Source of the DNA: Nitrospinota bacterium
GTDB lineage: Bacteria; 2-12-FULL-45-22; JACOWJ01
Length of the DNA: 46,529 bases
Assembly (NCBI GenBank): GCA_016176845.1
Contig: JACOWJ010000010.1
Location: 1-46,529, forward strand
Reading direction: 5' to 3'
In this document: one piece after another, positions 19,048 to 41,886 of the stretch
Numbering within the stretch: the first letter of the stretch is position 1
Layout of the letters: each line of letters starts with the position of its first letter
Translations under genes and position numbers: made by a program
Notes under the pieces: generated by a model
What the model was told of the DNA's origin: nothing
What the model saw: only the letters and a program-made list of their open reading frames with translations
Database searches by the model: none

Positions 19048-19710
19048 CTACATTCTGTCAGGAGGGGCTACCGACTCCGCCCATTCCCTTCTTACCTTCC
19101 CCAACACCATCCCCTGCATCGCGTCCAGGGCGCCCAAGAGATGGAGGATGGCAAAGTGGCCCAGCATCAAGGGAATGCTCACGTAGGTCAGGATATCATG
19201 GATGGTAAAGGCCCACTCTACCAGCCGGTCGGAGAAGTAGTCCCGGCTTGCCCACATGATGGACCCGGTGAGGACGAAGGCCGACGCCATCCCGATGCTC
19301 CAGACGAGATGGGCCCGCTTGGCCAGGTTTAACCACCTGGCCCGGGAAACGTTTTGGGACACCTCGGTTGGCCCTCTCCCGCTCCTCGACTCCTCCGGCG
19401 CCTTTCCCCGCCTTTCGACCAGGAAGGCCAGGAGCAATAGGGTGGGAATCACGATAAAGGCGATGGCGAGCCATTCGTGCCAGTCCCGCAGCATGAAGGA
19501 GTACCCCCCAATCCGTTCCCGCGGGTGCACCTCGAATGGCTGCCAACCGTAAGGCAGCAGCAGGAAGCCTGTCCCCATAAGCCCCAAGAAGGCCAGGGTA
19601 TGAGTCCAGTGCAAGAGCCGCTGTTTTGAGGTATAACGGATCACGTACAGTTCATGTTCTTCAAGCTCGGCCTGGGCGGCCACCCTGGATGTCTTCTCCG
19701 TCTCCCGCAT
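19048..19710 (-). CDS. Cytochrome b561-type membrane subunit (formate dehydrogenase gamma / hydrogenase cytochrome b-like)
   Basis: 'RYTSKQRLLHWTHTLAFLGLMGTGF', 'LRDWHEWLAIAFIV', 'IHDILTYVSIPLMLGHFAILHLL'; multiple TM segments with His. Confidence 0.75.
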   Translation of the reverse strand: MRETEKTSRVAAQAELEEHELYVIRYTSKQRLLHWTHTLAFLGLMGTGFLLLPYGWQPFEVHPRERIGGYSFMLRDWHEWLAIAFIVIPTLLLLAFLVERRGKAPEESRSGRGPTEVSQNVSRARWLNLAKRAHLVWSIGMASAFVLTGSIMWASRDYFSDRLVEWAFTIHDILTYVSIPLMLGHFAILHLLGALDAMQGMVLGKVRREWAESVAPPDRM

Positions 19711-25053: not shown

Positions 25054-26433
25054 ATGACAAACATCGGCAAGCAAGGCAATTGGATCTTTTACGGTTGGAT
25101 CGTGGTACTGATCGCGTTCCTGACCATGGCCTTGAACTACTCTATCCGGTACTCCTACCCCATCTTCTTCGTGGCCCTGGAGGAGAAATTCGGGTGGAGC
25201 CGGACGGCCACCTACTTTGCCTACACCTTGCAGCTGCAGATCTATGGCTTCCTGGGAGTCATCGCCGGGGCCATCTACGACAAGGTGGGGCCCAGGGTGC
25301 TCTTTCCCATCGGGGCCGTCATCGTCTTTGCGGCCATGATCTTCTGTAGCCAGCTCGATTCGCTGTGGCAGCTCTATCTGTTTGCGGGGGTCATGGTCCC
25401 CCTGGGCACCATCTGCATCGGCATCGTCCCTCACACGGCCCTGATCAACACCTGGTTCGCGAAGAAGCGGGGGCTGGCCTCGGGACTGGCCACGGCAGGC
25501 TTGGGGGTGGGCATGGGCCTCAGCGGGCTGCTGGGCCAATCGCTCATCTCGGCCTTCGGGTTCCGTTGGGCTTATGCGATCTTTGGAATGATGGTCCTGG
25601 GAGGGGTGGTCCCCCTGGCCCTCTTGTTCCAAAGGCGCCGGCCGGAAGACCTGGGACTGCTTCCCGACGGGGACCGGTCAGGCTCAGAGGTCCGGGTGAT
25701 CTCGCAGAGAAAAAGGAAAAAGGAAAGGCCCCAGGTGGACGCCATCGTGGACAAAGAATGGGCCAGCCGAGAGTGGCCGCTCAGGGAGATCGTACGGACC
25801 GGCAGGTTCTGGGTCTTCTTTGCCATGAAGTTCTTCCTGGTCTTCGGTGTCTACGCCGTCCTGATCCACCAGGTCCATTACGCGGTGGGGCTGGGCTTCT
25901 CCAAGATGGCGGCGGCGGCGGCCTTTGGCATCACGGGCCTGGTCGGCGCCCTGGGGAAGATTGTCATGGGCCATCTCTCGGACCGGATTGGGAGGGAGGT
26001 CATCCATACCCTGATTATGGTCCTGGCCTCGTTAGGGATCGTGGTCCTGATGAACATCGAGGACCCCTCCCAGGCCTGGATGCTGTACACCTATGCGGCG
26101 TTGTACGGGGTCGGCTATGGCGCGATCGCGGCCATTCTCCCCCCCATGCTGGCCGATGTTTACGGGGTGAAGGCCCTGGGGGCCAGCTATGGCCTGTCGG
26201 TGCTGGGGAGCGGGCTGGGGGGGTCCCTGGGCCCTCTGTTCGCCGCCTATCTCTACGATACCACGGGCAGTTACCAGACCGCCTTCACCGTGGCCATTGC
26301 CTTCCTGGCCTTCACCGTCGTTCTGGTCTGGATCTTCGCCCCCCGGAAGGTGAGGCTGGTCCATGGGAGGGCCCTGGCGCGGGCCAGGAAGGTGGCCCCA
26401 GCGGCGGTGGTGGCGAGCCAGGAGGCACTGTAA
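25054..26433 (+). CDS. MFS transporter (oxalate/formate antiporter-like OFA/monocarboxylate type)
   Basis: 12-TM pattern; 'FYGWIVVLIAFLTMALNYSIRYSYPIFFVALEEKFGWSRT', 'KRGLASGLATAGLGVGMGLSG'. Confidence 0.85.
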   Translation: MTNIGKQGNWIFYGWIVVLIAFLTMALNYSIRYSYPIFFVALEEKFGWSRTATYFAYTLQLQIYGFLGVIAGAIYDKVGPRVLFPIGAVIVFAAMIFCSQLDSLWQLYLFAGVMVPLGTICIGIVPHTALINTWFAKKRGLASGLATAGLGVGMGLSGLLGQSLISAFGFRWAYAIFGMMVLGGVVPLALLFQRRRPEDLGLLPDGDRSGSEVRVISQRKRKKERPQVDAIVDKEWASREWPLREIVRTGRFWVFFAMKFFLVFGVYAVLIHQVHYAVGLGFSKMAAAAAFGITGLVGALGKIVMGHLSDRIGREVIHTLIMVLASLGIVVLMNIEDPSQAWMLYTYAALYGVGYGAIAAILPPMLADVYGVKALGASYGLSVLGSGLGGSLGPLFAAYLYDTTGSYQTAFTVAIAFLAFTVVLVWIFAPRKVRLVHGRALARARKVAPAAVVASQEAL

Positions 26434-26460
26434 TCTCTGTGAACCATGGCCAAATTCTTC

Positions 26461-26586
26461 TAGCAGCCTGTCGGAGAATTCCGTAAGCTATTGATTTTAC
26501 TGGGGCCGCTGTTAATCTCAATTAGGTGGTCAACCCAAGCAAAATCAGCACTTCAGGGGTAGGTCGATCTCTCCGACAGGCTGCTA
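26461..26586. repeat. 126-bp MITE-like element with perfect 17-bp terminal inverted repeats
   Basis: TAGCAGCCTGTCGGAGA (26461-26477) vs TCTCCGACAGGCTGCTA (26570-26586); ends TA...TA. Confidence 0.75.
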
Positions 26587-26639
26587 GGGCGGCAATTTCA
26601 CCCTCCAGGTACCCGGCCAACAGGAAAAGGAGGCAGATT

Positions 26640-27779
26640 ATGACCAAGGAATTAGAAACCGTCAAGCAGTTTCGGACCCTCTTCACGAATCGGTATCAGG
26701 GGGCCAGGGAGCTCAAGGCCCAGGGGCAGCGGATCGTCGGCTGGATCTGCACCTACGTTCCAGAAGAGATCATCCATGCAGCAGGACTATTCCCCTTCCG
26801 GGTGATCGGGGGCTCCCCCGAGACCCCCAGGGCCGACGCCTTCCTCTACTCCAACAACTGCACCTTCGTGCGCAATTGCCTGGAGCAAGGGCTCAACGGG
26901 AGCCTGGACTTCCTGGACGGGATTGTCGCCTGCAACACCTGAGACCACATTCGGCGTCTGTATGACGCCTGGATGAAGTACCTGCCCACGCCCTTTAAGA
27001 AGCTCATGGGCATTCCCTGCAAGGTCTCCAGGGCCACGCTGTCCTACTTTGAGGACGAGTTCGACCTCTTCCGGCGGGATCTGGAGGAGCACTTTGGGGT
27101 GGCGATCACCCCCGAGGCCCTGGACCAGTCGATCCGCCTTTACAACCGGAGCCGGGAGCTGCTGGAGCAGCTCTACGAGCTCAGAAAGGCCGATCCGCCC
27201 CCCATCACCGGGGCGGAGGTGATCGAAGTGATCCGGGCGGGCTGGATCATGCCCCGGGAGCAGTACAATCCCCTGTTAGAGGCCCTGCTGCAGGAGGTGA
27301 CCTCTAAGCCCGATCGGCTCGCCGGGAGCGATAGCTACCGGCTGCTGGTCTACGGCAGCGAGCTGGACGAGCCCGACTATCTCAAGGTTATCGAGGACCT
27401 CGGGGGCATGGTGGTGGCCGATGACCTGTGCACCGGGTCGCGCTACTTCACCCTACCGGTGGAGGAGGATGGGAATCCCCTGAGGGCACTGGCCATCCGC
27501 TACCTGACCCGCCCCTTCTGTGCCCGGATGCATCCCACCTCCGAGCGGGTCGAGCGCCTGCAGCAGCTCGCTCGGGACTTCCAGGTCGAAGGGGTCATCC
27601 ACGAGACCATCAAGTTCTGCGATATTAACGTAGGTAACTACCCCATCACCAAGGCCGGCCTGGACGAGTTGGGCTTGCCCAGCCTGTGCCTGGAGCGGGA
27701 GTACATCATGGCCGGGGCGGGCCAGATGAAGACCCGGGTGGGGGCCTTTCTGGAGAGCTTAGAGGGACGGCGCGGATAA
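26640..27779 (+). CDS. 2-hydroxyacyl-CoA dehydratase / benzoyl-CoA reductase family subunit (HgdB/BcrC-like) with in-frame TGA (26940-26942), candidate selenoprotein (Sec101)
   Basis: ORFs 26526-26942 and 26973-27779 share one frame; read-through gives '...GSLDFLDGIVACNT-U-DHIRRLYDAWMKYLPTPFKK...GAEVIEVIRAGWIMPREQYN...'; family normally has Cys at U; SD 'AAAAGGAGG' upstream. Confidence 0.8.
26953..26969 (+). promoter_or_regulatory. Candidate bacterial SECIS hairpin (GGCGTC-TGTAT-GACGCC)
   Basis: Perfect 6-bp stem, 5-nt loop with G at loop position 2; 16 nt between TGA and apical loop. Confidence 0.6.
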
Positions 27780-27842
27780 GCTCGTAGCTGATAGCTCATG
27801 GCTCATCAGGTGAGCGATATCAGCTATCAGCTACGAGCTAAG
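27777..27842. repeat. Word-type palindrome AGCTCGTAGCTGATAGCTC...CAGCTATCAGCTACGAGCT
   Basis: Inverted AGCT words directly after the dehydratase stop codon. Confidence 0.7.
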
Positions 27843-27872
27843 GCAATTTCCGGAAAAGGTTATACCCCTTTT

Positions 27873-27945
27873 GAGATTGCTTCGTCGCTGACGCTCCTCG
27901 CAATGACCCAATATTCTGTCATTGCGAGCGAAGCGAAGCAATCTC
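27873..27945. repeat. Dispersed hairpin repeat GAGATTGCTTCGTCGC...GCGAAGCAATCTC
   Basis: Long near-perfect palindrome; same family as 42179-42252. Confidence 0.8.
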
Positions 27946-27980
27946 ACAATAGAGGGATATTCTTTTTCAGAAATCGCCTA

Positions 27981-28097
27981 AGGATCATGGACTCAATAGC
28001 TTTCCCGTGATCGTGATCGTAATTCGAGAACGATTACGATCACGATTACAACACCCAGGGGCATATTCAATGGGAAAGTTATTCGGTCACCATTCCT
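27981..28097. repeat. Composite MITE-like repeat B: arms as in 17401-17538 with CGTGATCGTAAT/ATTACGATCACG core
   Basis: Left arm AGGATCATGGACTCAATAGCTTTCCC, right arm GGGAAAGTTATTCGGTCACCATTCCT. Confidence 0.65.
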
Positions 28098-28112: not shown

Positions 28113-29435
28113 ATGAAAAAGGCAGTGGACGATTACCAACATATGGATGCGATGGCGGTCGAGAGCCTCAAGCTGGAGGCGACCTACAAGACCTTCCAGA
28201 AGAGGTTCAAATGGCAACAGGATCACGGCGTGGCCTTAAGCAAGCAGCTCTACACTCAGGCCATGGCCGACTATTTCATCCGGACGGCCCAGGCCAGGCA
28301 GAACGGCAACACCCTGGCTTATACCAGCGTGGCCTTCTTCCCCGAGCTGCTCCATGCCATGGATGTGGTCAACTTTGCCCCCACCCAATATGCCATCCAG
28401 ATCATGGTCCAAGGCAATCACGTCAAGTACATCCAGAAGGGGCTGCAGACCGGCCTCTCCACCGAGCTCTGCTCCTGCATCACGGGGGCCGCCGGCATGG
28501 TAGTGGACGGGCTCTTCCCCGCCCCCGATCTCATCCTGGCCACGGGACAGCAGCCCTGCGATTCGGCCACCATCGAGGCCGAGCTCTTCAAGCAGCACTG
28601 GGACGTCCCCTTCTTCTGGTACAGCATCCCCTCCCGCAGGGATGAGCGCACGGCGGCCTTTCTGCGGGAGCAGTTCGAGGAGATGATCGAATTCGTCGAG
28701 CAGAACAGCCCCAACCGCTACGACGAAGAGAAGATGCGGGAGGTGATGGAGAACGCTAAGGCGGCCCACAGCTGGTATACGCAGACCCAGGAGCTGCGCA
28801 TGGCGACCCCCTGCCCCCTGAGGTCGCGCGATAGCCGCCAGATCCGGGGTCTGAGGACCTTCCTGGATGGACGGCCCGAGACGGTGGAGGCCCTGCGGGC
28901 CCAGTATGAGGAGACCCGGGAGAAGGTAGAGAAGGGGGAAGGGGCCATCCCCGAGGAGCGCCACCGGCTGGTGGTCAATGGGGTGCCGCCCTTCTGGAAC
29001 ATGAAGCTCTTCGACTGGATGGAGGAGACCTTTGGGGCGGTGGTGGTGGTCGATCTGTGCAACCGCTTCTACCCCTATGACATGGGGGCTACCTCCGATC
29101 CCCTGGGGTGCCTGGCCCGCAAGGTGCTGAACTACAACATGAAGGCGGGCATCGACACTTCGGTGGTCTCGGGGGAGGAGCTGGCCCATCAGGCCGAGAA
29201 GGCCAACTGCGACTCCTCCATCTATTTTGCCCACTTCGGTTGCAAGGTCGGCTGCGGGGCCGCCAAGGTCACCACGGACACTATCCGGGAGATCACCGGA
29301 GTCCCCAGCGTGACCCTGGATATCGATGCCTACGACCCGCGGGTGGTCTCCGATCAGAAGATGAAGGCGGTCCTCACGGAGTACTTCGAGACCCTGGAGA
29401 CCAGCAAGAGGAGCTTCGCCCTGGCCGGCGTTTAA
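28113..29435 (+). CDS. 2-hydroxyacyl-CoA dehydratase / benzoyl-CoA reductase family subunit
   Basis: 440 aa; 'AYTSVAFFPELLHAMDVVNFAP', 'ELCSCITGAAGMVVDGLFPAPDLILAT', 'GVPPFWNMKLFDWMEETFGAVVVVD', 'GCKVGCGAAK'; SD AAGGAGG. Confidence 0.85.
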   Translation: MKKAVDDYQHMDAMAVESLKLEATYKTFQKRFKWQQDHGVALSKQLYTQAMADYFIRTAQARQNGNTLAYTSVAFFPELLHAMDVVNFAPTQYAIQIMVQGNHVKYIQKGLQTGLSTELCSCITGAAGMVVDGLFPAPDLILATGQQPCDSATIEAELFKQHWDVPFFWYSIPSRRDERTAAFLREQFEEMIEFVEQNSPNRYDEEKMREVMENAKAAHSWYTQTQELRMATPCPLRSRDSRQIRGLRTFLDGRPETVEALRAQYEETREKVEKGEGAIPEERHRLVVNGVPPFWNMKLFDWMEETFGAVVVVDLCNRFYPYDMGATSDPLGCLARKVLNYNMKAGIDTSVVSGEELAHQAEKANCDSSIYFAHFGCKVGCGAAKVTTDTIREITGVPSVTLDIDAYDPRVVSDQKMKAVLTEYFETLETSKRSFALAGV

Positions 29436-29486
29436 GGCGCAGGTGGCTGCGGTGATCTCTAACCCTTGGGGGAGGAGGCAGAAAAG

Positions 29487-31898
29487 ATGGAGAGACCTTT
29501 GGCTGGGCTCCGGGTTTTGGAGATCGGCTCGGCCCTGGCAGGCCCGTTTGGGCCAAGCCTCCTGGCCGATTTTGGGGCCGAGGTGATCAAGGTCGAGATG
29601 CCGGGGGAAGGGGACATGGTCCGCCAGACCCTGCCCCTTTACCAGGGGAAGGCCCTACGGTGGGAAGTGGAGGCCAGAAACAAGAAGGTGATCACCCTGG
29701 ATTTCCACGCGGAAGAGGACCGGGAGACCTTTAAGCAGCTGGTCGCGGTGTCGGATGCCATCGTGGAGAACTTCCGGGCCGGCACCCTGGAGAGGTGGGG
29801 CTTGGGGTACCCGGAGCTGAGCCAGAGGAACCCCGGGATCGTGATAACCCGGGTGACCGGTTTCGGACAGGACGGTCCTTACAGCCACCGGGTCTCTTAC
29901 GACCGGATGGGGATCGCCATGGGGGGCCTGACCTACTTGAGTGGGGATCCCGATCGGATTCCGGTCAGGCCCGGTCTGGCCATTTGCGATTACATCACCG
30001 GGGCCTTCAATGCCCTGGCTACCCTGGTCGCCCTGTACTACCGGGATGGGAAGGGGGGCGGGAGGGGCCAATGGATCGACGTGGCCCAGTACGAGACCAT
30101 CTACCGCATTACCGGCTTCCTCACCACCGAGTATCAACTGCGGGGCCGGATCCGGGAGCGAGAGGGGAACCGGTACCCCAAGGTGGCCCCTGGCGAGAGC
30201 TACCGGACGCGGGAGGGGAAATGGGTCCACCTCTTCGTCCCTTCTGACGAGGAGCTCTCTCGCCTGGCCCGGGCCATGGGAAGGGAGGACCTCCTGGAGG
30301 ACCCTCGATTTCACACGGCCCGGCGACGGGCCGAGCATGGGGCGGAGATCAATGACATGGTGGCCCAATGGATGGCGGAGCATACCTTGCCGGAGATCCT
30401 CTCCATTTTAGAGGAGGCCAGGTTGCCCTTCAGCCTCATCTATAACCTCCAGGAGATCTTCGAAGATCCTCACTACCGCGCCCGGCGGACCCTGATCTCG
30501 CTGCCCGATACGGCCCTGGGGGAGCTCCAGATGCAGGGGGTGGTCCCCCGGCTTTCCTTGACTCCCGGCCGGGTCGAGAGACCCGCCCCTGGATCCATCG
30601 GCCAGGATAACGAGGAGGTCTTTTCCCGCCTATTCCAAGGCCTTATGGAGAGACCTCCGGCCAAGAGTGCCCCTGCCAGCTCGGAGGAGGTCCGAGAGGG
30701 GGAGGCCCTGCAGGGCTTAAGGGTCCTGGATCTGGGGACGGGACTGGCGGGCAACTTCGGCGCCGTCCTGCTGGCGGACTACGGGGCAGAGGTCATCAAG
30801 GTGGAGGAGCCCAGGGGGAGTCAGAACATCCGGCATATCCCCCCATACTACGAAGAGGCCCCCCTCCTGTGGGCCGTCGATGGAAGAAACAAGAGATCGA
30901 TCACCCTGGACCTGTCCCAAGAGCAGGGAGAGGCGCTCTTCAAGCAGCTGGTAAGGGTCTCGGACCTGGTGATAGAGAGCTATCCGCCGGGCACCTTAGA
31001 GGCGTATAACCTGGGGTGCGAACGGCTGCGAGAGATCAACCCCGGGCTCATCCTGGTGCATGTCACCGGCTTTGGGCAGGAGGGCCCTTATCGCCAGAGG
31101 CCCTGGTCCGACCGGGTGGCCGAGGCCATGAGTGGCTTGACCTATTTGACCGGATATCCCGATCGCCCCCCCACCAGCCTGGGGCTCCCGGTCACGGAAT
31201 ACGTCACCGGGGTCTTCAGCGCCCTGGGGGCTATGCTGGCCCTCTATTACCGGGATGCAAAAAGAACGGGACGCGGGCAGTGCGTCGATGTCGCCCTGTA
31301 CGAGGCCATCTTCCGGATCCAGGGACCCACCGCCGTCGAATATTCTAAGACCGGAATCGTGAGCGAGCGGACGGGAAATCGCAACCCGAGCGCGCCCCTG
31401 GACGATATCTATCGGTGCGCTGATGGGAAATTGATCGCCATCCTGGCTGCCGGGGACCGGATGTTCGTCCGGGCCATGAAGGCGATCGGCCGGGAAGACC
31501 TGCTTTCGGATCCCCGGTTTCGAGATCGGGCCGGGAGGGCCAGGCCGGAGCACAATGCCCTGATCCATAAGGTGATGGAGGAGTGGATCACTCCCAGGCC
31601 TCTCGGGGAAGTGGAAGAGGTCCTGGATCGGGGCGAGGTCCCCTACTGCAAAGTGTACAGCATCCAGGACATCTGCGAGGATCTCCATTACCAGGCCCGG
31701 GAGATCATTGCCCAGGTCAAGGATCCAACCCTGGGCGAGATCCGCATGCAGGGAATCGTCCCCAGGTTCTCCCTCACCCCCGGCCGGATAGAGAGAGGGG
31801 CCCCCGCTTTGGGACAGGACAACGGGGAGATCTATGGGGGGCTATTGGGTCTCTCAGAGGGGGAGATCCGCAGGCTGAAGGAGACGGGAATCATCTAA
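29487..31898 (+). CDS. Tandem (double-domain) CaiB/BaiF family CoA-transferase
   Basis: Two homologous halves: 'LAGLRVLEIGSALAGPFGPSLLADFGAEVIKVE' and 'LQGLRVLDLGTGLAGNFGAVLLADYGAEVIKVE'; each has 'NPG(I/L)(V/I)(I/L)..VTGFGQ(D/E)GPY'. Confidence 0.92.
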   Translation: MERPLAGLRVLEIGSALAGPFGPSLLADFGAEVIKVEMPGEGDMVRQTLPLYQGKALRWEVEARNKKVITLDFHAEEDRETFKQLVAVSDAIVENFRAGTLERWGLGYPELSQRNPGIVITRVTGFGQDGPYSHRVSYDRMGIAMGGLTYLSGDPDRIPVRPGLAICDYITGAFNALATLVALYYRDGKGGGRGQWIDVAQYETIYRITGFLTTEYQLRGRIREREGNRYPKVAPGESYRTREGKWVHLFVPSDEELSRLARAMGREDLLEDPRFHTARRRAEHGAEINDMVAQWMAEHTLPEILSILEEARLPFSLIYNLQEIFEDPHYRARRTLISLPDTALGELQMQGVVPRLSLTPGRVERPAPGSIGQDNEEVFSRLFQGLMERPPAKSAPASSEEVREGEALQGLRVLDLGTGLAGNFGAVLLADYGAEVIKVEEPRGSQNIRHIPPYYEEAPLLWAVDGRNKRSITLDLSQEQGEALFKQLVRVSDLVIESYPPGTLEAYNLGCERLREINPGLILVHVTGFGQEGPYRQRPWSDRVAEAMSGLTYLTGYPDRPPTSLGLPVTEYVTGVFSALGAMLALYYRDAKRTGRGQCVDVALYEAIFRIQGPTAVEYSKTGIVSERTGNRNPSAPLDDIYRCADGKLIAILAAGDRMFVRAMKAIGREDLLSDPRFRDRAGRARPEHNALIHKVMEEWITPRPLGEVEEVLDRGEVPYCKVYSIQDICEDLHYQAREIIAQVKDPTLGEIRMQGIVPRFSLTPGRIERGAPALGQDNGEIYGGLLGLSEGEIRRLKETGII

Positions 31899-32104
31899 CC
31901 CTGTAAGCGCTGGGAGAGGCTGGACGAGAAGGCCTGTTTAACCTCCATGGGGAAAGGGGGGGTGATGGCTATGAGGGTCGCTTGAGATGGCAGATTATGG
32001 AGAATTGAGCCCATCTCAATGGGTCACTGGCCCTCAGCCATCGAGCAATCTTCAACACGGTGGCTGAGGGCCGAAAGCTTCCATTTATTCGGGGAGGATC
32101 AATC

Positions 32105-33616
32105 ATGAAGGTCAAGGCTTACCTGTCAGGAGGATTGTTCCTGATTTTCCTGCTGGCGTTTCTCCCGCTTTCTCATGCAGCACCGCCCGGGGTCGTCGGC
32201 CACGGGCAGGGAGACTATCTCGACACATCCAAACAGACCTGGAAGGAGTACTCCCCACCCATCAGGGACCCGCTGGGCCACCCCAAGTGGCCCTGGCTCC
32301 CCAAGGACCCCTACCCCTTCACCCAGCCCTATACCGGGACGGAGCTGGCCTATCTCTCCAACACCGACCACAGGACTTACGGGGCCAAGTATTCGGATTA
32401 CGCGCTGAACTCGGCCCGGCTGAACAAGCGGGGGCTGCTGACCCAGCGGAAGGGGTATATCAAACGGGAGCTCTTCTATGACCACTACAGCGACATCATG
32501 GACTACAACGATGGAAAGATCAAGATCGGGGGTGAGATAACCAACCGTCTCATCATCTACGAGACCCCGGCGGATGTGCGGGGGACCCAGTCGATCAAGA
32601 ACCACCACCTCAACAGCCCGATCACGCCCTGGCTGATGGCGGACTCCTGGAGCTATTCCCCGGGCCTGCGGCGGGTCACCCGCTCCCAGGGAGGAGACCG
32701 GCAGGACGAGATCCTGGGGACCCCGGTGACCAACGACGACGAGGGGGACCGGGAGGTCTGGGAAGAGGAACAGGAACTGATCGGCGAGGACGTCCTCTAC
32801 ATGCAGATGGTCGATCCCCAGTTCCTCGCCATGGACCGCCGGGCGAACACGGGGGACCTGAAGGTGGACGGCGAGTGGTTCGTGAAGAACGCGGACCCCA
32901 CCCGGGGCGAGCTGAAGCTGAACCCCTACCGGCCCGATGGCGGCGTCGAGTGCTTTGTGGTCAAGAACACCTGGGCCAAACGAAGGGAAGGGTTCGGCTC
33001 CCACGTCTACCCCGACCCCAAGCAGTATTACCTGAAGTATCGACTCGTCTGGATCGAGAAGGTCACCAAGGCCTACATCCGGGATGAGCAATATGATCAC
33101 GACAACCGGCTGATCAAGGTCTACCGGATCAACCCCGAGTTCTTTGCCGGGGGCGTGATCGAAGGCGGCCTCAACCGCACCCAGTACATGCAGTACGACT
33201 ACCGACGCCACTTCCGCTCCTGGGGGTCCTACGACCGCGCCGACATGGGGCCCAAGTTCAAGGCCCCAAGAGACTGGTTCTCCCCTGAGCATATGTTCCG
33301 GGAGTACTTCTGGCGGAAGCTCAAGATCCCCTTGCTTAAGGATATGAAGGAGTTCGCCCCTCCTCCCGAGCTGTGGCGGGCCAAGTTCCCCAAATACCGC
33401 AAGGGGACGAGCGATTGGCTGGTGAACTCCAAGGAAGACATCGACTACATGAACAGCATCTGGAGGGAGCACGGCTATACCGATGAGGAGATCGATGCCC
33501 TCCAGAATGGGGATGGGATGGTCCGCAAGGGCGGCAAGATGATCCCGGTCCGGCGCAGCTTCCGGCCCTCCCATATCCACGGCAAGCCCCTGCCGGTGAA
33601 GTTCCCCACGGGCTAG
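32105..33616 (+). CDS. DUF1329 family (outer membrane lipoprotein-sorting-like) periplasmic protein
   Basis: Signal peptide 'MKVKAYLSGGLFLIFLLAFLPLSHAA'; 'RGTQSIKNHHLNSPITPWLMADSWSYSPGLRRVTRSQGGDRQDEILGTPVTNDDEG' DUF1329-like. Confidence 0.75.
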   Translation: MKVKAYLSGGLFLIFLLAFLPLSHAAPPGVVGHGQGDYLDTSKQTWKEYSPPIRDPLGHPKWPWLPKDPYPFTQPYTGTELAYLSNTDHRTYGAKYSDYALNSARLNKRGLLTQRKGYIKRELFYDHYSDIMDYNDGKIKIGGEITNRLIIYETPADVRGTQSIKNHHLNSPITPWLMADSWSYSPGLRRVTRSQGGDRQDEILGTPVTNDDEGDREVWEEEQELIGEDVLYMQMVDPQFLAMDRRANTGDLKVDGEWFVKNADPTRGELKLNPYRPDGGVECFVVKNTWAKRREGFGSHVYPDPKQYYLKYRLVWIEKVTKAYIRDEQYDHDNRLIKVYRINPEFFAGGVIEGGLNRTQYMQYDYRRHFRSWGSYDRADMGPKFKAPRDWFSPEHMFREYFWRKLKIPLLKDMKEFAPPPELWRAKFPKYRKGTSDWLVNSKEDIDYMNSIWREHGYTDEEIDALQNGDGMVRKGGKMIPVRRSFRPSHIHGKPLPVKFPTG

Positions 33617-33790
33617 CGGCCTTCTGCGAAGGCCGCAATTGCAAATTGAAAATTGAAAATTGAAAATTCAAAATTGCAAAATCTGAAAAAGACACATGCT
33701 TCAAGTTTTTTCAATTTGCACTTTCCAATTTTCAATTTGCAATGGAGCGAAGCGACTGGCCCCTGCCGGTGAAGTTCCCCACGGGCTAGC
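33587..33790. repeat. Perfect 31-bp direct repeats (33587-33617, 33760-33790) flanking an AATTGAAAATTG inverted-repeat cassette
   Basis: CCCCTGCCGGTGAAGTTCCCCACGGGCTAGC twice; first copy encodes the CDS 3' end. Confidence 0.9.
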
Positions 33791-33810
33791 CATCGCTGCG
33801 GGCTGATCCG

Positions 33811-33860
33811 AAAAGAGGGGGGGCGCCTCTGACAAGGCAAGAGGCGCCCCCCTCTTTTCC
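33811..33860 (+). terminator. Strong GC-rich hairpin (AAAAGAGGGGGGGCGCCTCT...AGAGGCGCCCCCCTCTTTT), putative terminator
   Basis: ~19-bp stem with one bulge, A-tract/T-tract ends. Confidence 0.75.
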
Positions 33861-34022
33861 TGGCGGATGCCAGACAAAACCAGGGCTTTTACTTCGCCTC
33901 CATACTCTTGAGCCCTTGTGCGGTTGAGCTTTATTCCCGAAGGCCGGTCCCCAGGGACCCCATCGCCATCGGCCTCGTCGAGGCGGCGTTTGCTCAAGCT
34001 CCCAAAAGAGGAGTTTCATCCC

Positions 34023-35555
34023 GTGCAGCCAGGATCCCGTCTTTGGTTATCCTTCGTCGCGATGCTAACGATCCTGTCCTCCGAAACCCCCAGCAGCGTT
34101 GGCATGGAGCTCGAAAACCCCTTTCAAACCTTCCTGGTTAGACCGCTGGTAGAAAGCTTCCCCAATTTAGAGCTGAGGGGCTCTCTAACGAGCGAAACGG
34201 ATTTTCTCTTGCACAACATCAACGGTGAGGCGAGGTCCAGGGGGTTTGACTTCCGAGGAGACAACCCCACGATCTCCCGTTCGGAGCAGATCTTCGAGTT
34301 GAAATACAAGTACCATCTTGCCAAGGGGATGTCCCTTGGGGGACAGTTAGACTTCCTTTATGAGGCGAGCTTCGCATTGGATGGGGGGGCGGATCGGCGC
34401 CCGAGGAAGGCCCAGAACAACTTTGAATATTTCAGGTCCTTCAAAAGGTGGTTCAGAGAGTTTTTCCTGGAAGTGCATCGAGGAAATTGGGACTTCGTGG
34501 TGGGAAAGCAGCAGCTCGTCTGGGGACGGATCGATACCGTTCGGATGATGGATCAGATCCAGCCCCGGGATATCCGGGAGTTTCACGACGATGCTACAGA
34601 TGACTGGGAGTTTACCCGACAACCCACTTGGATGGCCGTCGTTCGATACTGGCCCCTGGGAGAGACTTTAGGCCTGGAGTTTCTATTCAAGCCAGACTTT
34701 GAGCCGGATTACGTCGCCCCGGCTGGCTGGCTGCAATCGATGAGGACCATCTACCCCCTGCCCAGGAGCGTCCGCATTCTCGACATCGATCGGCCCGAAG
34801 ATACCGATCCCAGCGATTGGGAGTACGGGTTCCTGACGACCCTGCTCATCGGCTCATGGGATATGGGGCTCTCTTACTACTACGCGTGGGATAAATCGCC
34901 CACCAGCTTCACCCGGAGGATCACCGGCAGCCCAGGCCGGCCGTTGAGCCTGGTCGAACAGAAGCACACCCGACTCCATAAGCTCGGCAGCTACGTCAAC
35001 TTCTCCCCTTCCATCGGGGGAAAAGAGTGGACGTTCCGCTGGGAGAGCGTCCTGGATGTGAACAAATACCTGCCGACCCGGGCCGAATCCAGGTCCCGCA
35101 CCAACGCGTTCAGGAGAACGGGTCGTGATACCCTATCGGGATATGATGGAGTCACCAAAAGGAATCAGCTCCAGTTCTCCCTCAATGCGGATACGGCCCT
35201 CAATATCGCCCGGACCACCGATTGGTCCCTGACCCTCCAATACCTGGGGACGTATACCTTCGGGCATGACAATGACCTGTTCGGCCGGAGCTCGGGGGCG
35301 ATCGAGAAGTGGTGGCATGCCGCATCCTGGAGCATCTCGAAACCCTTCTCGGGCCGGAGGGGGATGTTCTCCACCGGCCTGACCTGGATACACGATGGCA
35401 ACTTCGGCAGCCGGACCAAGGTTAGCTGGGATCTGACGGATTATCTCACGCTCTCTGCGGCCGTTCGGTGGTTTTCCGGAAAGGATGATGACACCTATGG
35501 GGTTTTAGAGGAGATCGGCGATGAGATCGAAACGGAGATCAGTTATTCTTTTTGA
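34023..35555 (+). CDS. DUF1302 family outer membrane (porin-like) protein
   Basis: 'ELKYKYHLAKGMSLGGQLDFLYEA', 'VVGKQQLVWGRIDTVRMMDQIQPRDIREF'; C-term aromatic 'ISYSF'; GTG 34023 with AGGAG upstream chosen as start; next to DUF1329. Confidence 0.8.
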   Translation: MQPGSRLWLSFVAMLTILSSETPSSVGMELENPFQTFLVRPLVESFPNLELRGSLTSETDFLLHNINGEARSRGFDFRGDNPTISRSEQIFELKYKYHLAKGMSLGGQLDFLYEASFALDGGADRRPRKAQNNFEYFRSFKRWFREFFLEVHRGNWDFVVGKQQLVWGRIDTVRMMDQIQPRDIREFHDDATDDWEFTRQPTWMAVVRYWPLGETLGLEFLFKPDFEPDYVAPAGWLQSMRTIYPLPRSVRILDIDRPEDTDPSDWEYGFLTTLLIGSWDMGLSYYYAWDKSPTSFTRRITGSPGRPLSLVEQKHTRLHKLGSYVNFSPSIGGKEWTFRWESVLDVNKYLPTRAESRSRTNAFRRTGRDTLSGYDGVTKRNQLQFSLNADTALNIARTTDWSLTLQYLGTYTFGHDNDLFGRSSGAIEKWWHAASWSISKPFSGRRGMFSTGLTWIHDGNFGSRTKVSWDLTDYLTLSAAVRWFSGKDDDTYGVLEEIGDEIETEISYSF

Positions 35556-36585
35556 GACGCTCTTCCTATTGGCCATGACGAGCTCCTTATATGGGGGGCA
35601 ATGGATCAACCCGAAAGATGTGATTAAAGATCCAAATGTCGCGAGGCTAAACCATAATAAGCAAGGGCTTACAAAGCAAGAGAGCGAAGAGGTCAATCGA
35701 TATGGTCACACAGGCCTTGAGGTAATGACCTATCTAGACTGCAATGCTATGCCTGGAAAGGATAGCGACTACACACAGTACATGATTCAAGTGAACTCGT
35801 GGGGCCATATTACTCATAGGAAGCAACTGGTCAAGATCAAGTATTATTTTAAAGATTATAGAGCGTTGTTGGCCAGAGATGGGATTCAAATCGGAGATGT
35901 CGAGTATAAACGACATTTTTTCAATTTTCACCCACCAAGGACGAAGGGACGAGCAGGGGTTATGCGCCACTATGTCAGAGGAGAAGGATTTAATAAAATA
36001 GAAGACGGTTGGTCTTGGGACAACAAATTGAGAAAGATAAGTAAGAGCACAACGAGAAACAGGACGGATAGCTATGTTAACTCCGATGTTACCCTTGATG
36101 ATTTACAATATAGGGAGCCATGGGAGGAAAATCATCGGATACTTGGAATAGATAACTTCAAAGATCGCGAATGTTTTGTAATAGAATCTATAAACAAAGA
36201 CCCAAATTATTATCTAAGTAAAAGAATAATTTGGGTGGAAAAAGAAAATTTCTTGGATCTGCATATAGAGGAATACGACAGGAAAGGGCAATTGTTTAAA
36301 GTAATCGATAAGGACTGGGCCCAAGAGAAACCTTGGAACTATTGGGTGGTCCGATCTTGGGATACGTTCAATCTCCTCACGAAGTATCGGACGATCATCC
36401 TGTACTATGATTGGGTATTCGACCAGGATTTCAGCGAAAGGGAATTTTCCCAAAGGGAGCTCCCCAAAGAGAACCTGTGGAGGAGACCGAAAGACCCCCC
36501 AATCTCCGTGAACCGCGTGTCCGATTTGCCCCCACCCCCGAAGGTCAAAGGAGATTTTGGGGAGAGGGTGGAGAACCAAGGGTAA
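35521..36585 (+). CDS. Second DUF1329-like periplasmic protein, AT-rich gene overlapping the DUF1302 gene end
   Basis: 'PWEENHRILGIDNFKDRECFVIESINKDPNYYLSKRIIWVEKENFLDLHIEEYDRKGQLFKV' resembles 32105 product 'YYLKYRLVWIEKVTKAYI'. Confidence 0.65.
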   Translation: MRSKRRSVILFETLFLLAMTSSLYGGQWINPKDVIKDPNVARLNHNKQGLTKQESEEVNRYGHTGLEVMTYLDCNAMPGKDSDYTQYMIQVNSWGHITHRKQLVKIKYYFKDYRALLARDGIQIGDVEYKRHFFNFHPPRTKGRAGVMRHYVRGEGFNKIEDGWSWDNKLRKISKSTTRNRTDSYVNSDVTLDDLQYREPWEENHRILGIDNFKDRECFVIESINKDPNYYLSKRIIWVEKENFLDLHIEEYDRKGQLFKVIDKDWAQEKPWNYWVVRSWDTFNLLTKYRTIILYYDWVFDQDFSEREFSQRELPKENLWRRPKDPPISVNRVSDLPPPPKVKGDFGERVENQG

Positions 36586-39634: not shown

Positions 39635-39779
39635 GGGCGCCCATCTTCCAAGGGCTGCGGCATCGCCAGGGGCCCCCCTTGGAGTCCACCCCGGCCCATT
39701 CCATCCAGGGGGTCGCGGAGGGAACCGAAGGAGATTCGGAAGGCACCGGAAAACGAAGGGACGAAGGAAGGAGAGCGAG

Positions 39780-40621
39780 ATGCGTGCACTCAGAGCACTG
39801 GAAGAGATCCGAGGCGTCAATATCCCCACGCCCTTCTTCTTCGTATTCACCATCCCAAGAGGTTCGACCATGGCGCCCTCCAGCTCTATCAGACCCAGGT
39901 CGAGCGATTCAAGGAGGGACTCGAGGGGCTCATCGGCGCCGAGATCTCCGACGAGTCGCTCCGGGAGGCCATCCGGGTCTACAACCGGAACCGGGAGCTC
40001 CTGAAAGAACTGTTCGACCTGCGAAGATCGGACACCCCGCCACTCTCCGGCGCTGAGGCCCTCGAGATCCTCAACGCGGGGTTCCGGATGCCTAAGGAGG
40101 AGCACACGGCGCTGCTGGAAAGACTGCTCCAGGAGATCTCCCAGAGTCCTCCGGCCCCGAGGGGAGGTCCCCAATACCGGCTGATGATCAATGGCAGCCC
40201 CCTGAACAATCCCGAATTTATCCAGACCATCGAGGAGCTGGGGGGCCTGGTGGTGATCGATGAGTTGTGCACGGGCGCCCGGTACTTCTGGGACCCGGTG
40301 GATGCCTCCCTGCCCCCCCTCGAAGCCCTCTCGATGCGCTACCTGTATCATTTCCCCTGTGCCAGGATGTACCCCTCGGAGGAGCGGTTTAAACGGGTGA
40401 TCAACCTGGCCAAGGAGTACAAGGTTCATGGGGTGATCACGCAAATGATCCGCTACTGCACGCCGTACACGCGCGATCAGGTCCTGCTGCAGGAGAAGCT
40501 GGAGGAAGAGGGGATCCCGGTCCTCTCCCTGGATGTGGAATATGGCCAGGGAGGCGTCGGGGCGATCCGGACCCGGGTCCAGGCCTTTTTGGAGATGTTG
40601 GAAGGGAGGAGTGCGCGATGA
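39780..40621 (+). pseudogene. N-terminally truncated, frameshifted HgdB/BcrC-like dehydratase subunit
   Basis: Frame 39780 'MRALRALEEIRGVNIPTPFFFVFTIP' shifts near 39852-39857 into '..KRFDHGALQLYQTQVERFKEGLEGLIGAEISDESLREAIRVYNRNRELLKELFDLRRSD...MPKEEH...' continuous to 40621. Confidence 0.65.
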
Positions 40622-41886
40622 AGCGGCTAGAAAAAACCGATTTGAGCAAATGCGAGGAATTGATCCGGGTTCTCGAGGAGGCGAAATCCCAGGCCGAGAC
40701 CCCGGTCGATGCCGCGGCGTATGATCTGTGGGCCCAGTATTATCGAAGGTTGATCCGGGCCAAATCCCAAGGGAGGCTGATCGTGGGCCACAACTGGTTC
40801 ACCCCCATCGACATCTGCCGGGCGATGGAGATGGAGCCCCTGTGCATCAACGGGTACGCCCAGATCATGGCAGTGACGCTGGGCCTGGAGGGAGGAGTCT
40901 CCGGGGCGTCCAAGGCCGCCGGGCTGGCCCCCGAGCTGTGCGGGAGCCATATCTCCAGCCCGGGCGTGGCCTTGAAGGGGTGGATGGTCGAGCCGGACGT
41001 GGCCGTCTGGAATCACGGCCCCTGCGACAACACCGCCAAGCACGGGGAGCTCTTCACGGAGCTCTTCGGCATCCCGGGCTTCTTCCTGGACCCGCCCTAC
41101 CGGGGGGAGGACGAGGCCGAGATCGCCTACTATACCGAGCAGCTGAGGGGATTGGTCCGGTTCCTGGAGGACCTGACCGGCCGGCCGATGGATTGGGATC
41201 GGTTGCGGGAAGTGATGCGGCTCTCGGCGGAGATCGTCAACCTGCGCAAAGAGATCAACGAGTTGAGGAAGGCCGTCCCCTGTCCCTCCAGCATCCGGTG
41301 GACGGGGAATTACCTGACCATCTTCTCCTTCATCTGGTCCGGGACCCCCGAAGGGGTGGCGTTTCACCGGCTGATGCGGGACGAGATGAAGAAGCGGGTC
41401 GCGCAGGGCCAGGGCTTCATCCCTCAGGAGAACTACCGGGTGATGTTCGTGGGGCTGCCCGCCGCCTATGATGCGGATTTCATCAACTGGATGCAGGTAG
41501 AGAAGGGGATCAGCGTAGTCTCAGAGCCCGGCATTTCCCATTACCTCGGCTGGGAGCCTGATTACAGCAAGCCCCTGGAGAGCCTGGCCCGCTGCCGGAC
41601 CTACACCACCTGCTGGGCGATGCAGGGGCCTTTGAAGGAGATGTGGATCCCCGATGCCGTGGCCGCCGCCAGGGAGTATCACGTCGATGGCGTGATGTGC
41701 TGGCCGGCCCGGGGATGCCGTCAGTACCCGGCGGCCCTGCGCGCGGTGGCCGATGCGATCAAGCGGGAGGTGGGGATTCCCGTCGTCATGATGGTGGACT
41801 CCGACTTCAACGATCCCTTCTTCGTCTCCGCCGAAGAGCTGATGGACAATGTGGAGAAGGCCCTGGAGATCATCGACAAAAAGTAG
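40618..41886 (+). CDS. 2-hydroxyacyl-CoA dehydratase / benzoyl-CoA reductase family subunit
   Basis: 422 aa; 'GHNWFTPIDICRAMEMEPLCINGYAQ', 'ELCGSHISSPGVALKGWMVEPDVAVWNHGPCDN', 'GVMCWPARGCRQYPAALRAVADAIKREVGIPVVMMVDSDFND'. Confidence 0.85.
   Translation: MKRLEKTDLSKCEELIRVLEEAKSQAETPVDAAAYDLWAQYYRRLIRAKSQGRLIVGHNWFTPIDICRAMEMEPLCINGYAQIMAVTLGLEGGVSGASKAAGLAPELCGSHISSPGVALKGWMVEPDVAVWNHGPCDNTAKHGELFTELFGIPGFFLDPPYRGEDEAEIAYYTEQLRGLVRFLEDLTGRPMDWDRLREVMRLSAEIVNLRKEINELRKAVPCPSSIRWTGNYLTIFSFIWSGTPEGVAFHRLMRDEMKKRVAQGQGFIPQENYRVMFVGLPAAYDADFINWMQVEKGISVVSEPGISHYLGWEPDYSKPLESLARCRTYTTCWAMQGPLKEMWIPDAVAAAREYHVDGVMCWPARGCRQYPAALRAVADAIKREVGIPVVMMVDSDFNDPFFVSAEELMDNVEKALEIIDKK

Follow-up and report, generated by a model that had tools for sequence, protein, structure and literature searches.

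A candidate selenoprotein of the HGD-D family with selenocysteine predicted at a double-cubane ligand position

Enzymes of the HGD-D family carry out ATP-driven reductions at very low potential, including the Birch-type reduction of benzoyl-CoA and radical dehydrations. The described systems closest to the gene reported here are the class I benzoyl-CoA reductase BzdNO, the double-cubane proteins (DCCP) and (R)-2-hydroxyisocaproyl-CoA dehydratase HadBC (PDB 3O3M). In the BzdNO structure (PDB 8S02; PMC11971306), Cys36, Cys73, Cys100, Cys263, Cys293 and Cys327 of BzdN coordinate an [8Fe-9S] double cubane, and the single cluster of BzdO and of HadB occupies the site of the proximal sub-cluster. 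The known DCCPs (PDB 6ENO and 7YYL; NF040772) are homodimeric and have Cys only; a provisional link of DCCP genes to selenium metabolism has been made (PMC10418091), but no report of DCCPs as selenoproteins was found. Selenocysteine (Sec) takes the place of Cys in HdrA and other iron-sulfur selenoproteins (PMC13188914, Table 1), which resemble our candidate as iron-sulfur redox enzymes of anaerobes and are unrelated to it in fold and family. No Sec form of the HGD-D/double-cubane family is described in the literature examined, which did not extend to unindexed GenBank annotations or subscription papers. A 2026 review of 119 prokaryotic selenoprotein families or subfamilies contains no HGD-D, BCR or DCCP entry, the words "dehydratase" and "benzoyl" are absent both from it and from a 2022 review, and no selenoprotein model for HGD-D came up in an NCBIfam scan. 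An earlier note on this DNA did not count the family among the well-known bacterial selenoproteins; the HGD-D selenoprotein proposed here, whose UGA most likely encodes Sec, would be a family missing from the current catalogue.

The DNA analysed (the window, 46,529 nt) comes from a genome assembly of 1.53 Mb in 61 contigs that is 68% complete. A single frame is observed on the forward strand from ATG 26640 to TAA 27777-27779, its sole interruption being the TGA at 26940-26942. The mechanical list of open reading frames accordingly has two entries, 26526-26942 and 26973-27779; translation of 26640-27779 with TGA as Sec gives 379 amino acids with a single internal stop, at residue 101. The sequence aaaaggaggcagatt provides a good ribosome site immediately 5ˊ of ATG 26640 (binding site region 26625-26639, assigned from sequence), in agreement with the Shine-Dalgarno element claimed before, and the gene likely starts at 26640 and not at 26526. 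The read-through product matches the HGD-D profile PF06050 as one stretch (residues 37-374, 326 bits against a gathering score of 28.4 bits) that covers the whole profile, positions 1-342 of 342. The homology therefore spans the TGA, and the description of two same-frame ORFs split only by this codon, with homology on both sides, is upheld.

The TGA was said to sit exactly at a cysteine that ligates the cluster. Of 77 distinct homologous stretches, 76 have Cys at column 101 (TGC in 55, TGT in 21), and alignment to solved relatives pairs residue 101 with BzdN Cys100, an [8Fe-9S] ligand, which supports the placement and makes it more precise. Homologues with a residue other than Cys or Sec in this column would have spoken against the claim, and only one was found, with Ser. 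It is homologue L055 (G032), in which many conserved sites differ and which perhaps has another cluster or function. If Sec is counted, the six double-cubane ligand columns are complete in the candidate (C37, C74, U101, C264, C294 and C327), and an alignment of 47 proteins, in which the query's Sec was entered as Cys, shows no variation at residues 74, 101 and 327.

The earlier assignment to an HgdB/BcrC-type dehydratase subunit calls for a small correction: the HGD-D family stands, and within it the product lies nearer the BzdN/double-cubane (DCCP) branch than HgdB. NCBIfam ranks the double-cubane reductase model first (NF040772, 232 bits, cut-off 350), followed by BzdN (TIGR03190, 196 bits, cut-off 454), HadC (177 bits) and BcrC (161 bits). 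All of these scores are under the equivalog cut-offs, so that membership failed for NF040772 and for TIGR03190 and the product is best described as an HGD-D subunit without a named subtype. Judged by sequence, BzdN is the closest relative of known structure. An AlphaFold2 model (47 aligned window and locus proteins, Cys in place of Sec, no cluster) has a mean pLDDT of 94.9 and a pTM of 0.93; in the PDB it matches BzdN chain 8s02_B best (TM 0.94, 31% identity in the structural alignment), with DCCP and HadC next. The candidate thus shares with BzdN the fold, the six ligand positions and a gene that adjoins a second HGD-D subunit, but BzdN has Cys100 where the candidate has Sec, and in contrast to BzdNO the partner subunit is nearer HadB than BzdO and a CoA-transferase gene adjoins the locus. 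DCCP gives the best NCBIfam score and has the same six ligand columns, whereas the candidate is followed by a second subunit gene. HadBC is likewise a heterodimer in a CoA-ester context and has three Cys ligand columns in common with the candidate; in the alignment, however, two of the six double-cubane columns hold no Cys in HadC.

The presence of Sec machinery had been named as a check, and the check was met in the same genome by a tRNA-Sec with anticodon UCA (70.4 bits) and by matches to SelA (608 bits), SelB (378 bits) and SelD (381 bits). The SelD match itself contains one TGA, in the context SHGAG-TGA-ACKLSP (GAG-U-ACK), which we take to be the usual catalytic Sec/Cys site. From this position we infer that, the candidate aside, at least one gene of the genome very probably has a UGA read as Sec. 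SelD (L016/L066, G000:C23:19348-20271) is thus likely a selenoprotein itself, its TGA being followed by a strong hairpin, CUGGCGCAGGUCCUGCGCCAG. The candidate resembles it in having UGA at a Sec/Cys site and a hairpin downstream; the SelD hairpin differs in its longer stem, its other loop sequence and a loop at about +32, against +17 for the candidate, and the mismatch in loop sequence and distance counts against the proposal.

A bacterial SECIS of the E. coli type is a hairpin just past the UGA with a G early in the apical loop, and E. coli fdhF has a UGA-to-loop distance similar to that seen here. The hairpin at 26943-26981 (+) fits this criterion. Its upper stem of 6 bp (GGCGUC/GACGCC) pairs 26953-26958 with 26964-26969 above a bulged lower stem, its loop UGUAU (26959-26963) has G in second place and begins 17 nt past the UGA, and its folding energy was computed as -15.8 and as -16.2 kcal/mol, the latter with z -2.5. 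Because the region is coding, the null consisted of 20,000 synonymous sequences, of which 0.38% were equally stable and 0.26% were both equally stable and SECIS-like in shape (p ~0.003); the hairpin is therefore rarer than codon choice predicts. The relaxed shape alone occurred in 27% of the synonymous sequences, so the weight rests on the strength of the fold, and the limits on shape were chosen manually once the hairpin was known. Only one of the 77 homologues reaches this stability (mean -6.8, sd 3.8), and a comparable hairpin follows 1.0% of the 1261 TGA triplets in the window. The window contains no match to a known RNA in Rfam.

None of the 32 near-invariant columns (conserved in at least 85% of homologues) is altered in the candidate, neither the 9 before the UGA nor the 23 after it. 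In a maximum-likelihood tree the candidate is nested among Cys forms and pairs, with 99/95 support, with a Cys copy that its own genome carries on contig C19, the simplest history consequently being one Cys-to-Sec change after duplication. The two end branches are equal (0.37 each), and past the UGA the candidate differs from its closest relative in G001, the only other genome of the phylum, at 115 of 271 sites, against 125 for the Cys sister. The absence of downstream decay claimed by the earlier note is supported to this extent: no excess change or decay is seen after the TGA, although a true dN/dS is lacking, as the nearest relative is only 61% identical. The candidate's own genome (G000) and G001, the two genomes of this small phylum, are both rich in HGD-D matches (about a dozen or more each), many of which form two-subunit pairs, an unusual expansion.

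The expectation that relatives would also carry TGA was not fulfilled. No second TGA at this column was found in the candidate's own genome, in related genomes of small phyla or in any of the 386 genomes searched, and all copies inspected in G001 have Cys. Three TGA-bearing matches (G033:C71, G025:C103 and G120:C38) were rejected as second cases: each of them has Cys at column 101, and such stops as occur are at the normal C terminus. Since the phylum is represented here by two genomes, the missing second TGA is weak evidence, yet it is the main gap, and the case rests on one instance, supported by the hairpin, by SelD as a control and by the tests of constraint.

With a single TGA in a single incomplete genome, which is the main weakness of the proposal, neither a nonsense change nor a base error can be fully excluded. 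A recent nonsense mutation would make the gene a very young pseudogene whose role is covered by the C19 Cys paralogue and other copies; about a dozen HGD-D matches are available in the genome, repeats flank the gene on both sides, no relative shares the TGA, and a truncated copy in the same window (39635-40621) indicates that HGD-D copies do decay here. Such a mutation would nevertheless have had to fall on a ligand Cys, where only 6 of the 122 single-base nonsense changes possible in the gene would lie and which 95% would miss, and to produce TGA, of the three stops the one that the genome very probably reads as Sec in selD, ahead of a hairpin of p ~0.003 and with neither another lesion nor a rate excess; we judge it improbable. 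Somewhat less credence still is given to a one-base sequencing or assembly error, TGC read as TGA. The assembly is a draft, there is one instance and a third-position change would suffice, but coincidence would then have to account for the hairpin, for the ligand position and for TGA as the stop, and the other HGD-D copies listed in the genome have no stop within their conserved part; no read data bear on the question. An altered code that routinely reads TGA as Trp or Gly would account for an in-frame TGA as such and can practically be dismissed: the column is Cys, TGA ends other genes of the window, and an in-frame stop is present in none of the 20 other genes checked.

The alternative that retains most force accepts the selenoprotein and denies that Sec101 is a double-cubane ligand, the protein having instead a single [4Fe-4S] cluster, or Sec101 being a redox-active or substrate-contacting residue. 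HadC-like members do have one [4Fe-4S], the product falls under the NCBIfam cut-offs for the double-cubane and BzdN families, and the structural model contains no cluster. Against this, all six double-cubane ligand columns are Cys or Sec in the candidate, three of them (74, 101 and 327) do not vary in the aligned set, and the best fold match is BzdN, so that we hold this alternative to be unlikely, if less so than the others.

We have good confidence in the full proposal, that the gene encodes a selenoprotein into which Sec is inserted at codon 101, that Sec is probably a ligand of a double cubane and that the product belongs to a two-subunit CoA-ester enzyme. The UGA would be read by SelB and tRNA-Sec under the direction of the hairpin just downstream. 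The protein would be the electron-storing subunit of an oxygen-sensitive, ATP-dependent 2-hydroxyacyl-CoA dehydratase or CoA-ester reductase, with a [4Fe-4S]-S-[4Fe-4S] double cubane probably held by Cys 37, 74, 264, 294 and 327 and Sec 101. From the location of the single cluster in BzdO and HadB it is inferred that Sec101 lies on the proximal sub-cluster, which would be the one nearest the catalytic [4Fe-4S] cluster of the partner. This partner is an HGD-D subunit gene at 28113-29435 (+), nearest HadB in a PDB sequence search (HadB/BzdO-like) and probably catalytic; its Cys149 and Cys377 occupy ligand positions, and Cys120/122 lie close to the first of these. Electrons would come from a BcrAD/HgdC-type ATPase encoded elsewhere in the genome, where four such genes score over the cut-off. 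The adjacent tandem family III CoA-transferase (29466-31898, +; two CaiB-type domains) is a probable substrate-activating enzyme that would make the CoA ester of a carboxylic acid, which the two-subunit enzyme would then dehydrate or reduce. Upstream, an MFS transporter of carboxylate type (25054-26433, +), which scores best against carboxylate carriers, possibly serves the substrate. By analogy with other selenoenzymes, one may guess that selenolate in place of thiolate tunes the cluster potential or helps repair after oxidation. The computations show the frame, the conservation, the machinery, the hairpin and the alignment of the ligands; Sec insertion, cluster type, Sec as a ligand, substrate and the benefit of selenium are all inferences, without expression, mass or selenium data behind them.

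On balance we favour, with a good deal of reserve, the more specific idea that Sec is a direct iron ligand of a natural [8Fe-9S] double cubane, having replaced Cys in a single lineage of the expanded HGD-D family, and that selenium tunes this very low-potential centre. If true, selenium would be tuning one of the lowest-potential redox centres in biology. A native Sec ligand would offer, within one genome, two natural forms with Sec and with Cys (61% identical) to probe selenium in a complex iron-sulfur cluster, and it would add a selenoprotein family that standard gene callers split at the UGA.

Several further features were observed around the gene. A perfect 18-nt inverted repeat (26460-26477 and 26570-26587, 92 nt between the arms) lies just 5ˊ of it and resembles a small mobile or repeat element; a diverged single arm of the repeat occurs also at 19218. 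The Sec gene and its partner are separated by about 330 nt of DNA filled with several inverted repeats (27779-28049), versus about 23 nt in the pair containing the Cys copy on C19, a difference that counts against the proposal. The truncated HGD-D copy (39635-40621, +) is without about the first 125 residues, lies directly 5ˊ of an intact second-subunit gene (40618-41886) and is apparently a broken copy. At 32060-36585 (+), two LolA-like/DUF1329 genes flank a gene for a 545-amino-acid protein without a Pfam or NCBIfam match.
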